Source: a virus
Strand: one strand, 5' to 3'
Virus record (IMG/VR): IMGVR_UViG_3300021961_000688
Coordinates: 1 to 22,575 of that record
Length of the DNA: 22,575 bases
The notes below the pieces were generated by a model, which did not search any database, was not told the origin of the DNA, and was given only the letters and a program-made list of their open reading frames with translations. The position numbers were made by a program, and so were the translations under genes. Numbering within the stretch: position 1 is the stretch's first letter; each line of letters begins with the position of its first letter. This document shows, in pieces, positions 2,116 to 21,690 of the stretch.

Positions 2116-4536
2116 CTCTGCCATGTCAAATCCATCAAGCGTATCCTCGTTAGACTCAAAGCTTAATGGAGGTAGATTATTCTTGCGCTGATTAATCAAT
2201 TTAGACTGCTCAGTATTCTGCTGGCTTATTCTCTTAGCCTTTGCGTCCTCCTTCATCTTCTCACGATCAGCAAGAGATATCTCCTTAACACCAGCGATCT
2301 GCATCTGATAGTTAAACTCTTCAGCCATCAACATTCTCTTAAGCTCAGCCTCAGCCTTTAACCTCTCAATATCGAATGCCACCTCCGCCTGCTTGAACTG
2401 CATCTTAGCCTGAGCCTCCAACTGAATCTTCTGCATAGCAGTCTGTGCTGCTAGTTCCTGAGACTGCATCTGCTGCATTGCTGCCATCTCCTGCTTCTGC
2501 ATAGCCATCTTATCCTCACGCTCCTGCTTCTTAACTCTCTTGAGTTTCAACAACTGGTTCGCTAACTTTAGATTCTTAATCTCTCTGATGTCAATAGCAT
2601 CCTCAAGGTTAATGTCACCCTTCGCCAATGCCACCTGAATGTTCTGCTCAAGTTGTGCCTTCTGCTCTTCGTCTGGAGAAATCTCAATGAAGATACCAAA
2701 GTCGTAGATGTACAAATCCTTAATGTCATTCAATATAGACACGTTGTACTTTCCAATCTTATTTGCAAAGTCATCCTTAAAGTCAGCATACTGCAAGATA
2801 TCAGCCACACGATACGTAAGTGCCTCAGCAAGTGAACGATAGATAAATAGACCACTCTCAAGGATGTGTCTAGTAGCAGTGTTCGAGTTAAGTGCCGCTA
2901 GTTTTTGTACACCAACCAATGCATTTGGATCAGGAGTAGAACCATCTCTTGCTTCGTTCAGTCCAGTTACAGACCGAATCATGTCAAGGTAGTGGTTGTA
3001 GTTAGCAATAAGCATCTGAGTCTTAGACGCTCCTGAGTTGGATGTCAGCTGCTGGATAGGTACCCTAGCATTGTTGAACTCACCATCCTGAGTGTAACTA
3101 CGTCCAATAACACTACCAGTCTGGAAGTATAGTCTCAACGCATCCTCAGGGTTGTATGCCGCACCTGTGCCCAAGTCAACCTCATTCAATCCATCAGCAT
3201 CAATGAAGACACCATCAGGAACTGTACGGGCAATAACCTGCTGTAGCTTTAAGTGAGTCAACTGAATCAAGTCAGCAAAAGGAATCATCCTTCTAACCAA
3301 CGACTCAATAACACCCTTATACATTCGTGGTGCTACTGCAACGTAGTTAGGCAATGCATGCTGAGAAGAAGACTTTGGTCTCACCATGTTCTCAGATAGT
3401 TGCCACTTCAATAAGAAGTTGGTGCCCATCACCATTACACCATCATACCATACGTCAATGGTCTTCTCAAGCTTTTCAAACTTACCATCCTCCATCATCT
3501 CTAATGGAGGGTTAAACTGATCGTCCTTCTCAATTACTCTAGTAGATCCGTTCTCAAGAATCTTCTTCTTATAGACCATCTTCTTTGTGGTCTTATAATT
3601 GAAGTACATCAAAGTACAGGTATCTTGATAGAACAAACTGTTCTCGTAAAATCTAGCAGTGTTGTAGTAATCGTACCAGCTCTGAGAGTATTTGGATATT
3701 TCATCCAAGTCCTCACGAGTAAGGGTAGGGTCAATCTTCAACAGCTCAGTCATTGGTACAGTCTTAATCTCACCCCAGTAGAAGCAGTCTTGGAAGAATG
3801 GATCTTCTGTGTAGCTATACACCACGTTAGCAGGGTCAACATAAGACACCTGTACGCCAGCACCTGGCAAGAACTCATGCTTAGCAATACCAATACCTAA
3901 CACAGTCAAGTCGTAGTCAATACGCTTGCGTGTATCCTGGTAGTGGTTCTCATCAAGGATAGTGTTAATCGCTTCTTCTTCGGCAATCTCAATAGCAGGC
4001 TTATACTTAAGCTGCATGTATAATGATAGTTCCTCATCAGTCTGAGGCAACTCCTCTGGGTTAGTCACAAATGGATCAACACCAGTTTCATTCTGTATCT
4101 TTAGCAACAGATCCTTAGCAAGCATCTGGCTCTCAATCATGTCCTGATACTTACTTCTCTTTGCCTGAGACATTGCATCCTGTGCGTATGCCTTTACCTT
4201 AAAGAGTCTATCGCTCATGCCATTGACAACAATGTCAACGAACTTAGGAAGGATAGGTACTGGAGTCCAGTCAAGGTTTAGATAAGATAAGTCACCATCA
4301 ATGGCCAGCTCATTCTTATATTTCTGAACGGATTGTTCACCTCTTGCGTACAAACGCAGTCGGTTAAACTCACCCCATTGATTATAGTATCTACATTGAC
4401 TGCCATCCTTTCTGAACCATTCGTACTGAATAGCCTGACCAATTTGAAGGCCATACTCTGGAGTTGCCTTCTCAGCATCAGATACAAACTGGCTTGGAAA
4501 TGCAGTTGAAGATATATTAATTACGACATCTTTCAT
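2101..4536 (-). CDS. Portal protein (811 aa)
   Basis: Dodecameric ring at the capsid vertex through which DNA is packaged and to which the tail joins. Length (811 aa) fits large portals such as those of crAss-like phages. The N-terminal quarter contains LNLDWTPVPILPKFVDIVV at residues 86-104, typical of the portal stem/wing entry region of this type. The body is mixed alpha/beta with many aromatic residues. From about residue 676 to 770 there is a long Gln/Met/Ala/Glu-rich helix (KMAMQKQEMAAMQQMQSQEL), followed by an acidic tail, as expected for a C-terminal barrel or crown. The ATG at 4536 overlaps the TGA of TerL (ATGA), so translation is probably coupled to the terminase. Its stop lies 39 nt before the scaffold ATG. 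Assignment rests on length, the terminase-portal-capsid order and the helical C-terminus. Confidence 0.85.
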   Translation of the reverse strand: MKDVVINISSTAFPSQFVSDAEKATPEYGLQIGQAIQYEWFRKDGSQCRYYNQWGEFNRLRLYARGEQSVQKYKNELAIDGDLSYLNLDWTPVPILPKFVDIVVNGMSDRLFKVKAYAQDAMSQAKRSKYQDMIESQMLAKDLLLKIQNETGVDPFVTNPEELPQTDEELSLYMQLKYKPAIEIAEEEAINTILDENHYQDTRKRIDYDLTVLGIGIAKHEFLPGAGVQVSYVDPANVVYSYTEDPFFQDCFYWGEIKTVPMTELLKIDPTLTREDLDEISKYSQSWYDYYNTARFYENSLFYQDTCTLMYFNYKTTKKMVYKKKILENGSTRVIEKDDQFNPPLEMMEDGKFEKLEKTIDVWYDGVMVMGTNFLLKWQLSENMVRPKSSSQHALPNYVAVAPRMYKGVIESLVRRMIPFADLIQLTHLKLQQVIARTVPDGVFIDADGLNEVDLGTGAAYNPEDALRLYFQTGSVIGRSYTQDGEFNNARVPIQQLTSNSGASKTQMLIANYNHYLDMIRSVTGLNEARDGSTPDPNALVGVQKLAALNSNTATRHILESGLFIYRSLAEALTYRVADILQYADFKDDFANKIGKYNVSILNDIKDLYIYDFGIFIEISPDEEQKAQLEQNIQVALAKGDINLEDAIDIREIKNLKLANQLLKLKRVKKQEREDKMAMQKQEMAAMQQMQSQELAAQTAMQKIQLEAQAKMQFKQAEVAFDIERLKAEAELKRMLMAEEFNYQMQIAGVKEISLADREKMKEDAKAKRISQQNTEQSKLINQRKNNLPPLSFESNEDTLDGFDMAEFEPR

Positions 4537-7500
4537 CTAATAATTTGACTTTGATTTCCAGTGTTAGCGTACTTTGCGAAATTAACACTAATTTTCGACT
4601 CTTTTTTCTCCGGTAAATATACGTGTTTTTGATTTGCCATTATAGCTAAGCCTGAACTGATTGACGCATCGTGCTTTGTTCTATCATTAATGTCAAACTT
4701 TGCCCAGTCCTCAAGCGTCCTAGTGAACGGCATTGTGCCTATTTCATCTGATGATCTATACGTGCTGGCTAAATCAAACCCTACAAACTTCTCAATGTAA
4801 GACTCAATAGCTGATGCATGTGACTGCTTCACCTCCTCAGAGGAGTTAGGTATACCACCTAGTTCTCGCTCTGTCTTGCTAAGCTTATTCAATGTGCGGT
4901 CAGGTCTATTCATGCTGAATGCCCTGTACCCTCTATTCTTAAAGTGATATAATATACGAGCTTTATTGTTCTCCGCAAGCATAGGCATACCATAAAACAC
5001 ACAGGCCATCAAAACTTCCTCAAAGAATATCTCCGCTGTCTGCGGTCTTGCAATATACTCCAAGAAGAACTGGTTAACAGGAGCATCGTCCATGTGGTAC
5101 TTAGTCATACCATGAAGTGCGCCATTAGATCCACGTCCTCCAACTACTGCTGATATATCATAGGGGTCACATCCAAACGAACCCAGGTGCTCATTGCCTG
5201 GGTACTTCACTCCATTCCTTATTTGAACATTGTTCTGCAAATACAATGGTGGTACCCAGCTAATTAAGAACCTGCCCCTAGAGTCAGGTGTCCATATCAC
5301 CTTACTGTCCTTGATGCCATCCTTCCAGTGAAACGACCCACGTGTCACCATCTGCCCCTCAATACCTGAATCGTTGTAGTCAATCTGCTGGTAAATCTTG
5401 GTAAGGTTAAAGATAGATGACTTGCTCTCATCACGGAATGCATGCGACTCCGTGCGTGGGAACTGACGATAGAACTCGTTGAGTGCATCAGCGTCATTCT
5501 TTAATGACTCCACCTCAGCCTCCCAGTAGTCTACCGCACCATTCTTTATCATCTGCCCATCAACACCAAGAATAGGAGTAACAGGCTTTCGAACCACAGG
5601 CATGCCATACCTATCGATAAAGCCCTCCATGTTCCACTCCATCGGTATAAACAATGAGTATAGACCGCTCTTAGTTTGTCCATTCGCATTTCTAGTTAAT
5701 ACATTTGAGTCATCATATAGTTTCTTGTAGTTGTCCCCACCCTTGCTCAACGCATTCGATGTAGACCCCATCATGCACTTGCCAATAATCTTGCTACCCA
5801 CCCTGAGACAGGTCTTAGTTACTCGCCAGTTGTTCAAAATATTATTTGGCTTAGTCCACTTAGCACTATTCATACTTATCGTAAAGTCAGATAAAATAAG
5901 CTTACGCTCGTCATCATTATCTGCATCTACTTGTATACCAACGTACTCGCCTTTATCTAGATACTCAACAGATACCTTATTCCTTCTTCCCGTAGAAATA
6001 GGATCATAACCTTCAAATGATTTCTTTTCAGTTATTAATGGAATCCTAGAAAGTTCTCCAGATAAACTTATCCTGTATACTTCTGTATTAAAATTTGACT
6101 TATAATTCTTTACATTACTGCAACTTATTCCACAAGAAAGAGCTAACATTCTAATCTGTTCGATTAAATCTTTTTTACTCATTCCTATTGAAATCATATT
6201 CTTTTTCTTATCTGAGTATCCATCAGTCTCAATAATCCCAGCAAGAAGTTGAAGTCTAGATTCAATAGATGACTTCATGTACTGATCAGGAATATACTTG
6301 TTATTGTATACACCAATCTTTCTAAGTTCTGAATTAATTCCTTTAAATCTAAATTCTACTATTTTATCAGACGTACTTTTCTTAAAATCAAAATCAATAC
6401 CTTTCATTTCAGCAATCCTTCCTAGGTAATGCAATATTTCAGGCTCCTCTTCTTTGTTTACAAGTATAGTAAACTCTTGTTTTCTACCATCTCCAAGCCA
6501 TAGTCCTAACAGATATGGCGGTATGCCATCATAGTTATCTGCCATTTCAATACCCTTTGATGTAACTCTTGTTAGATGTTGCTTCACAAACTTTGATTTA
6601 GACATGTACTCCTCTGGAGTCATTATCACCTCTTCATGTCGATGAGCATTATTTCTAGAATTAAACATGTACCGATTGAATACAAGTCTATGGTTTTTTG
6701 TAACGATGTAGTCTTCTCCGTAAGGCTGCTTAACCAAGTATCGGTCTGTTACACCATCAACTCGCTTCATAACTGTCTTTATCTTTCCTCCTTCAACCAT
6801 TACTTTGTCACCAACATTAATATCCCTTATTGGTTTAAACGTAAAGTCAGCCATCAACAGATTGGTATCTGGAGCATAGCATTCATCATGTGCCAAGAAT
6901 AGTAACTTCTCACCATCGTAAGAGTTCTCCTCAGTGTTCTTCCAGTCAATAGTGGTATCAAGACCAATCACCTCAGTGTCAGAGGCATTGGCCATGTTCT
7001 TCTTAGTAATCTTAGATGCAGGTACACGGTACGCAAGCTCAGTCTTTGGCTTGTCCATACCATCCATGATAGGTCTGAAGAAGAATGGTAGCCTACTATT
7101 TATTGGGACCACCTTGTCAGTGAACATCTTCTTAGCATCAGCACCTGTCTTAGACAGGATACCAACACGAGAGTCACGAGCAAGAGTGGCTATGTTCACG
7201 CACTCAGATGATGACATGAATGAGAACCCTGAGCGTCTAATCTTTAGGTATATCATACCAAATGACCTAGTGTCTGCTCTGCATGCCTCCCAGAATATAA
7301 AGAATATGCGGTTAGCCTCACGGTAGTCTGCGTATCCAACGTCAATGCTAGACCACTGCAAGTACATATAATGAGACCCTGTGATGTATGTTGGCTCACC
7401 ATTGTTCATGAACCACATTCCATCCTCACGCCTATCAAACTCTGTCTCAATGTAGTCCACCCACCTGTCCTTAAACTCAGCAGGCATCTCATTCCAGTGA

Positions 7501-7784
7501 AAGATTGACTGTATCTTTGATAACTCCTTTGGCAAATCTTGCCTCTCCCAGTACTGATCCCTGATGTTCTTGCTCCTTGAAAAGCAATCTTTAGGTGCCT
7601 TAGGCAACGCAATATTCAGCCCTGAGATATTTATGATATCACCTATCTCTCCAGTCCTAGATATAACCACCATGTCGTACTGCTCATTGTAGCCGTACAT
7701 CCATGTCCTCCCACTGTTCTTTTTATTTAAAGAGTTCTGTGGGACGTGATCCTTAACGATTCGATATAGACCTTCGCTCTGCAA
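4533..7784 (-). CDS. terL: Terminase large subunit interrupted by an intein (1083 aa precursor, 745 aa mature)
   Basis: ATP-driven DNA packaging motor and headful/cos nuclease. ATPase domain: residues 181-188 (KIRRSGFS) look like a deviant Walker A with its lysine at the front, as in lambda gpA (KSARVGYSK). Walker B is KLLFLAHDE at 293-301, ending in the catalytic Glu301. An intein (302-639) begins directly after Glu301. Nuclease domain: Asp873 (FGCDPYD), Glu938 (LAENN) and Asp1039 (KHDAS) are candidate metal ligands of an RNase H-like fold. Without the intein the protein is 745 aa, normal for a large TerL. The start is uncertain. The frame opens with TTG at 7784, preceded at once by AAGGA; there is no in-frame ATG before the upstream stop, and the first internal Met is residue 29. 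It overlaps the preceding gene by 32 nt and the portal by 4. Confidence 0.93.
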   Translation of the reverse strand: MQSEGLYRIVKDHVPQNSLNKKNSGRTWMYGYNEQYDMVVISRTGEIGDIINISGLNIALPKAPKDCFSRSKNIRDQYWERQDLPKELSKIQSIFHWNEMPAEFKDRWVDYIETEFDRREDGMWFMNNGEPTYITGSHYMYLQWSSIDVGYADYREANRIFFIFWEACRADTRSFGMIYLKIRRSGFSFMSSSECVNIATLARDSRVGILSKTGADAKKMFTDKVVPINSRLPFFFRPIMDGMDKPKTELAYRVPASKITKKNMANASDTEVIGLDTTIDWKNTEENSYDGEKLLFLAHDECYAPDTNLLMADFTFKPIRDINVGDKVMVEGGKIKTVMKRVDGVTDRYLVKQPYGEDYIVTKNHRLVFNRYMFNSRNNAHRHEEVIMTPEEYMSKSKFVKQHLTRVTSKGIEMADNYDGIPPYLLGLWLGDGRKQEFTILVNKEEEPEILHYLGRIAEMKGIDFDFKKSTSDKIVEFRFKGINSELRKIGVYNNKYIPDQYMKSSIESRLQLLAGIIETDGYSDKKKNMISIGMSKKDLIEQIRMLALSCGISCSNVKNYKSNFNTEVYRISLSGELSRIPLITEKKSFEGYDPISTGRRNKVSVEYLDKGEYVGIQVDADNDDERKLILSDFTISMNSAKWTKPNNILNNWRVTKTCLRVGSKIIGKCMMGSTSNALSKGGDNYKKLYDDSNVLTRNANGQTKSGLYSLFIPMEWNMEGFIDRYGMPVVRKPVTPILGVDGQMIKNGAVDYWEAEVESLKNDADALNEFYRQFPRTESHAFRDESKSSIFNLTKIYQQIDYNDSGIEGQMVTRGSFHWKDGIKDSKVIWTPDSRGRFLISWVPPLYLQNNVQIRNGVKYPGNEHLGSFGCDPYDISAVVGGRGSNGALHGMTKYHMDDAPVNQFFLEYIARPQTAEIFFEEVLMACVFYGMPMLAENNKARILYHFKNRGYRAFSMNRPDRTLNKLSKTERELGGIPNSSEEVKQSHASAIESYIEKFVGFDLASTYRSSDEIGTMPFTRTLEDWAKFDINDRTKHDASISSGLAIMANQKHVYLPEKKESKISVNFAKYANTGNQSQIIR
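5868..6881 (-). mobile_element. Intein with LAGLIDADG-type homing endonuclease, in TerL at Walker B
   Basis: In-frame insert of 338 aa that should excise itself from the TerL precursor. Block A starts with Cys302 (CYAPDTNLLM). Block B is TKNHRLVF with the expected Thr362 and His365. Two dodecapeptide motifs mark a LAGLIDADG endonuclease: LLGLWLGDG (425-433) and LLAGIIETDG (513-522). Block F is around 613-636 (EYVGIQVD and LSDFTI). The C-terminal splice residue is Asn639 and the +1 nucleophile is Ser640. The penultimate residue is Met638, whereas most inteins have His. Joining 301 to 640 restores HDE-SAKW, a natural run through Walker B. The insert DNA is visibly richer in A and T than the flanking exteins, which suggests separate acquisition. 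Both dodecapeptide motifs keep the acidic residue, so endonuclease activity is possible. Confidence 0.93.
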
Positions 7785-21206: not shown

Positions 21207-21357
21207 TCGGAATAATTCCGATAAGGTTAAAGATATTTTACATTGTGATTTTTACGACAAGTCGTACCCTATAAGGTACATTATAAAAGCAAATCACAGT
21301 ATAGTATCACTATCGGGTATAATTTGAGAGATAGCACCTTTCGGTTTAAATTATTCC
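21207..21357 (+). ncRNA. Highly structured intergenic element, ncRNA or bidirectional structured terminator
   Basis: Between the stop of the plus gene (21205) and the convergent minus gene (21351). A composite outer helix can be drawn: 21209-21217 with 21349-21357 (9 bp), 21218-21221 with 21341-21344 (4 bp), 21223-21227 with 21336-21340 (5 bp), leaving only a 1-nt and a 4-nt bulge. Inside are a stem 21242-21251/21291-21300 (10 bp with one G-U), enclosing hairpins 21253-21258/21261-21266 and 21264-21268/21275-21279, and a stem 21310-21314/21330-21334. A competing hairpin, 21207-21213/21215-21221, is a 7-bp perfect palindrome. The wobble T243-G299 pairs only in plus-strand RNA. There is no U-run for an intrinsic terminator. 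No Rfam family recognised. Confidence 0.6.
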
Positions 21358-21602
21358 TTTGGTAATCTTTGTTTAATCTTACTTTCAAACTTATCAAATC
21401 TAGAGTCTATGTGAGAATTTAAACTCACCAACTCTCGATCAATCCTACTATTCAACTCATTATAGAAGTCAGTTGAAACTTTTTCTAAATATTCAAAATT
21501 AGATTCAACATTTCTCAATTGAGTACCTACCTTAACAACAATCACAACCCCAATTATCAATAGGACTGTAACTACTCCTAAAACAAAATATACTATTTCC
21601 AT
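21351..21602 (-). CDS. Membrane-anchored coiled-coil protein (83 aa), unknown function
   Basis: One N-terminal TM helix (about 4-24, VYFVLGVVTVLLIIGVVIVV) followed by an amphipathic coiled coil (about 30-78: VESNFEYLEKVSTDFYNELN and onward) with charged residues in heptads and a short Lys-rich end. Such N-in, TM, coiled-coil proteins recur in aquatic phages and may anchor a complex to the membrane. The ATG at 21602 follows a hairpin-prone leader (CTTTC, 6 nt, GAAAG) that could hide the start, and its stop codon lies within the structured element at 21349-21357. It lies downstream of the tRNA-like element and is probably co-transcribed with the MazG-like gene. Confidence 0.65.
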   Translation of the reverse strand: MEIVYFVLGVVTVLLIIGVVIVVKVGTQLRNVESNFEYLEKVSTDFYNELNSRIDRELVSLNSHIDSRFDKFESKIKQRLPKE

Positions 21603-21636: not shown

Positions 21637-21690
21637 TAGTCAGGACAGGATTCGAACCTGTAAGCAGCTACCCATTGTATACACCTGACT
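21637..21690 (-). ncRNA. tRNA-like element, 54 nt, lacking an anticodon arm
   Basis: Read on the minus strand it has a perfect 7-bp acceptor-like stem (AGTCAGG 21690-21684 with CCTGACT 21644-21638), a perfect 5-bp T-stem (ACAGG/CCTGT) and the canonical T-loop TTCGAAT (21656-21650), directly abutting the acceptor 3' strand as in tRNA. One unpaired base (A) follows at 21637, then CAGAG; CCA is not encoded. Only 22 nt lie between the acceptor and T-stem, beginning T-G (like positions 8-9) and including a D-loop-like TGGGTAG; no anticodon arm can be drawn. It is not a decoding tRNA. It overlaps the last 23 nt of the MazG-like gene, whose TAG stop lies inside it. Confidence 0.6.

Follow-up and report, generated by a model that had tools for sequence, protein, structure and literature searches.

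The window, i.e., the whole 22,575-nucleotide stretch of viral DNA analysed here, carries a 54-nt tRNA-like fold that is real and not the product of chance and that represents the smallest member found, among the matches listed, of a phage tRNA-like family comprising at least 204 distinct elements (at least 162 in an earlier set). The reading proposed here, which we place slightly on the probable side, is that in this large and unnamed class of phage RNA the acceptor/D/T core of a tRNA serves as a processed and stable scaffold for fast-evolving non-decoding domains, the cassettes being exchanged between uncultured (probably Bacteroidota) phages and the window element representing the minimal, anticodon-less form. 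There is, in our estimate, an even chance that this element is specifically the shortest subtype found of a leucine-tRNA-derived, non-decoding family whose RNAs are probably processed like tRNAs and act on tRNA-directed host factors.

Read on the minus strand from 21690 to 21636, the element is AGTCAGG-TGTATACAATGGGTAGCTGCTT-ACAGG-TTCGAAT-CCTGT-CCTGACT-A-C (Table 1). An earlier, sequence-only reading, not explicit as to the strand, had described here a tRNA-like fold with a 7-bp acceptor, a 5-bp T stem, a TTCGAAT loop and 22 nt between the stems, and had placed within it the stop codon of a MazG-like gene; all of these details are borne out, both stems being perfectly Watson-Crick paired and the TAG lying at 21668-21670. 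Compared with the tRNA family (RF00005), the element has the 7-bp acceptor and the 5-bp T stem with a TTCRANY loop, its D-arm region consists of 3 bp closing an AAUGG loop (4-5 bp in relatives) and the anticodon arm with its 7-nt loop is missing, only the linker being left. A TTCRANY loop, a 5-bp T stem and an adjoining 7-bp acceptor within 100 nt come together at a single place in the window and in none of 300 dinucleotide-shuffled windows, which rules out a chance fold; the folding energy of the element by itself is ordinary (z about 0). At this position ARAGORN calls no tRNA and Rfam yields no relevant match.

Table 1. Features of the tRNA-like element and of the flanking genes in the window.
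Feature	Position	Strand	Remarks
tRNA-like element, 54 nt	21637..21690	minus	A1 = 21690, discriminator A73 = 21637
Acceptor stem 5' strand, AGTCAGG	21684..21690	minus	Sequence common to most of the family (matches listed)
Reduced D-arm-like hairpin, UAC-AAUGG-GUA	21669..21679	minus	From folding and inspection of copies
7-nt linker in place of anticodon and variable arms	21662..21668	minus	
T arm, ACAGG-TTCGAAT-CCTGT	21645..21661	minus	
Acceptor stem 3' strand, CCTGACT	21638..21644	minus	
A73-C74	21636..21637	minus	C74 kept across the family
MazG-like ORF, 91 aa	21668..21943	minus	Label from the sequence-only reading; without Pfam match; last codons and TAG within the element
Small downstream ORF, hydrophobic N-terminus	21351..21602	minus	

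With the MazG-like protein as query, 80 IMG/VR loci were obtained, and near MazG in L002, L003, L018, L024, L051 and L052 the T-arm and 3' acceptor are those of the window, L018/L024 and L052 differing by one or two substitutions. In all six, AGTCAGG and a leucine-type D-arm (TGGCGGAA...) lie 79 to 150 nt upstream of the T-arm. The sequence-only reading had recommended looking at this site in related phages for longer tRNA relatives; such relatives are present and keep their stems. Acceptor and T-arm are shared, but the interiors are long and mutually unrelated. A normal tRNA-Thr is found near the corresponding place in L004 and L025.

Exact scans of IMG/VR, whose contigs come from uncultured phages, returned at least 120 stretches each with a T-arm/acceptor probe, with the AGTCAGGTGGCGGAA probe and with the D-arm only, the resulting family abundance and acceptor shares being lower bounds partly shaped by the probes. 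The common layout consists of the acceptor AGTCAGG/CCTGACT, a tRNA-Leu-type D-arm, a near-constant T-arm and A73-C74, with a hypervariable interior replacing the anticodon arm; by virtue of its paired acceptor, T-arm, A73-C74 and non-standard interior, the window element belongs to the family so defined. The length ranges from 55 to 192 nt (162 elements among the matches listed), the median being about 104 nt for long members. Two true tRNA-Leu(UAA) carry the same D-arm, and the family looks, from its sequence, derived from a leucine-type tRNA.

Covariation of the acceptor is the strongest evidence that selection maintains the structure of an RNA and not DNA alone. Indeed, among the matches listed, 22 distinct acceptors with at least two differences from AGTCAGG are paired on average at 6.55 of 7 positions, as compared to 3.45 with shuffled partners (maximum 4.18 in 1000), and since the deviating acceptors remain paired it is the fold of the RNA that is under selection. 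The D-arm probe, which carries no acceptor information, identified 95 distinct loci among the matches listed, 93 of them with a T-arm downstream and 83 of these 93 with a full 7-bp acceptor. Within the same limits, the D stem is paired in 175 of 204 elements (71 when shuffled) and, where it is other than GCG, in 42 of 55 (25 when shuffled), while C74, absent from all probes, is present in 200 of 204 elements and A73 in 190. Decay would erase the compensatory changes in the acceptors, the conserved C74 and the D-stem pairing, and it is for this reason improbable that the elements are functionless tRNA-Leu copies persisting via recombination of their shared ends, a drift with which the hypervariable interiors (147 clusters among the 162 elements listed), the exchange of cassettes at the T-arm described below and the reduced D stem of the window copy would be consistent.

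The two acceptor strands bear also on the attachment site suggested by the sequence-only reading, i.e., on a relic of integration that would match the 3' end of a host tRNA. The attP/attB cores resemble a T-arm plus the 3' half of an acceptor and, according to PMC9897764, prokaryotes commonly contain partial tRNA genes derived from integrated elements; here, however, both strands are present and covary, each phage has many copies, and the exact 3' end occurs in only 8 stretches among 84,980 species genomes, all of them MAG contigs and none showing a host tRNA with this 3' end. The covarying strands and the lack of a matching host tRNA 3' end in these genomes speak against the attachment site, and such a relic is barely credible. 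Five of the 8 MAG contigs are labelled as Bacteroidota taxa, which makes hosts of this phylum likely. Among 50,697 records of isolate phages only partial matches were found, and in no case was 80% of the window element or of a generic one spanned; no family of its own was found in Rfam for these RNAs, and a search of the literature, confined to open-licence papers and hence weak evidence of novelty, returned no description of one.

No motif is common to the interiors of the 162 elements listed, the motif UAGGGNGUGYRCANCCCGACC being restricted to L002-L004, L112 and L264, and their folding is modestly better than that of shuffled sequences (mean z -0.60, elements listed). Rfam matched neither a group I intron nor any other family to the interiors; many long members match RF00005, but only when 30-60 nt are inserted at the anticodon arm, and ARAGORN calls a tRNA in 39 of the 162 elements listed, about a quarter, so that most members are overlooked by a standard tRNA finder. 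A few could perhaps decode, e.g., the Lys-UUU form in L126. It is nevertheless very unlikely that the elements are functional tRNAs of the ordinary kind which serve codons in the infected cell and happen to have unusual introns or arms: plausible anticodon loops occur in some members, which often lie among normal tRNAs, but there is no common anticodon, the acceptor is shared regardless of the apparent one, the interiors are too short for group I introns and the 54-nt form is too small to accommodate an anticodon arm. Where a phage has about 30 normal tRNAs, each of these has its own acceptor, whereas AGTCAGG or a close variant of it is common to most of the irregular tRNA-like set.

Constant ends, variable middles and the presence of several copies per phage are also features of a tRNA scaffold bearing an antisense or guide sequence in its interior. 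This possibility is quite improbable, the window copy being almost devoid of an interior; furthermore, comparison of the interiors with 2.5 Mb of phage DNA gave no clear excess of complementary matches over shuffles, the stronger minus-strand matches being apparently unmasked family copies, and with these set aside antisense targets were rejected. As a separate observation, second T-arm-like hairpins occur in the interiors or D-loops of 11 elements (L102, L123, L175, L181, L237, L261 and others), 1.1 being expected.

The elements are mostly intergenic (178 of the 204 listed do not overlap an ORF) and have the orientation of the upstream gene in 127 of 144 listed, the window copy itself lying between two same-strand genes. 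This setting and the conservation of acceptor and T-arm beside a free interior agree with the main rival explanation, tRNA punctuation, whereby the elements would be only RNase P/RNase Z cleavage signals separating gene transcripts and the interior would be free to drift because these enzymes read the acceptor/T helix. Punctuation alone is in our judgment unlikely: long members, at the median length given above, would be costly as a mere signal, the Leu-type D-arm sequence is retained, 61 elements listed are within 300 bp of another tRNA, many inside tRNA clusters, and compensatory changes preserve helices in the interiors of the related copies L135/L156/L172 (GUGU-ACAC to GCGU-ACGC) and the D stem of the L107 class. 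A further possibility is a minihelix that binds a protein.

The 54-nt form is also found in L125, L265, L266 and L267, next to other neighbour genes and with a second tRNA-like sequence alongside. Acceptor and T-arm are identical in these four and in the window, and the small D hairpin, by inspection, has 5 bp in L265-L267, 4 bp in L125 and 3 bp in the window, the pairs being CUAC/GUAG in L125 and GCUAC/GUAGU in L265. Its occurrence in an unrelated phage group points to a transmissible, mobile subtype and not to local decay, with the qualification that the window copy may be weaker and, its D-arm being reduced to 3 bp, could be decaying. Of the relic tRNA envisaged in the sequence-only reading, the descent from a tRNA is retained in the leucine-like character of the family, but recurrence of the 54-nt form in other phages means that the element is no one-off relic.

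How the element came to include the end of a gene is suggested by L001, the window locus on another contig. Between L001 and L002 the identity is 93.8% before the element and 98.6% from the T-arm on, the interiors being unrelated, a pattern indicating that in the window phage the interior was probably swapped and MazG fused to the element by recombination at the T-arm. The MazG tails vary among relatives, which speaks against the MazG C-terminus as origin of the acceptor 5' strand and makes it most likely that the tail of the window MazG is element-derived. The elements behave as cassettes passed between phages. Elsewhere on the minus strand, the window has an apparent intein, a Hint/LAGLIDADG homing-endonuclease insert in a large ORF (4533-7784), and GroES-like and GroEL-like phage genes (18696-18953 and 22241-22575).

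Other tRNA-like RNAs were met alongside. A second phage class of about 158 nt is more conserved and has G73, and its long variable arm contains the core GGGTTGACCACAAAGCCGGC; it is found at L093:588-742 (minus), L121:5303-5469 (minus), L178:836-991 and in about 47 more contigs, with about ten different paired acceptor sequences, and has neither an Rfam match of its own nor a match in isolate phages. Its D-loop inserts (e.g., GGATATATCC in L093, GCGTACGC in L331 and GCTCTAGAGC in L324) change, yet form a perfect palindrome of at least 8 nt in 30 of 43 members, 1.3 being expected, a property that would be compatible with dimers formed through a kissing loop or a duplex. In addition, a 31-nt apical motif with a palindromic centre, UAGGGNGUGYRCANCCCGACCGNAAANAGAA, occurs at L264:751-846, at about 2522 in L112, at L002:3288 and at L004:2321, on a helix in one tRNA-like RNA and beside the element in L002/L004.

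In the family the anticodon domain has given way to a hypervariable interior, and in the window copy 7 nt take its place. Under the mechanism that we propose, the transcript would be trimmed by host RNase P and by the 3' tRNA-maturation path, yielding a stable non-decoding RNA that, in view of A73 and of the Leu D-arm, might be leucylated, because LeuRS ignores the anticodon. This RNA would occupy host factors directed at tRNAs, most likely defence or toxin enzymes that have tRNAs as their target, and the fast turnover of the interiors would reflect an arms race. A 5' cut at 21690 would, in the window phage, additionally sever the MazG-like mRNA a few codons ahead of the stop. The decoy step taken by itself is tentative and rather doubtful; it fits the arms-race pattern and the interplay proposed between phage tRNAs and tRNA-cutting enzymes (PMC10264068).

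It has long been asked why phages carry tRNAs. Many of them have a second set of tRNA bodies with one common acceptor and no obvious decoding, often beside the normal tRNAs, and, should these undergo processing and be stable, some of the phage "tRNA" repertoire would serve as decoys or for RNA stability or mRNA punctuation.

Among known RNAs, tRNA-Leu (RF00005, a type II tRNA) shares with the family the acceptor, the D-arm GGCGGAAU(U)GGUAGACGC, the T-arm, A73 and C74, and differs from it in that the family lacks a conserved anticodon arm and has a hypervariable interior, the window copy being without both anticodon and variable arms. The elements resemble tmRNA in their tRNA-like ends, in the absence of a normal anticodon arm and in the insert between D-arm and T-arm. 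Unlike tmRNA, the window element has by inspection U3-A70 instead of the G3-U70 alanine identity pair, the D stem of the family is usually paired, the long interiors share no motif fit for a tag frame and the 22-nt interior of the window is too small for a tag reading frame and pseudoknots; no tmRNA was reported by ARAGORN. The bacterial Y RNA YrlA has a tRNA-like module with a T-arm that is used outside translation, and would be a putative parallel; the phage element gives no Rfam match to it. Finally, the phage tRNAs by which tRNA-cutting defences are evaded or neutralised (PMC10264068; PARIS commentary, PMC11455837) are likewise tRNA bodies that a phage carries and whose anticodon region is altered, but they are decoding tRNAs with changes in the loop, whereas the family described here has a replaced anticodon domain or none.
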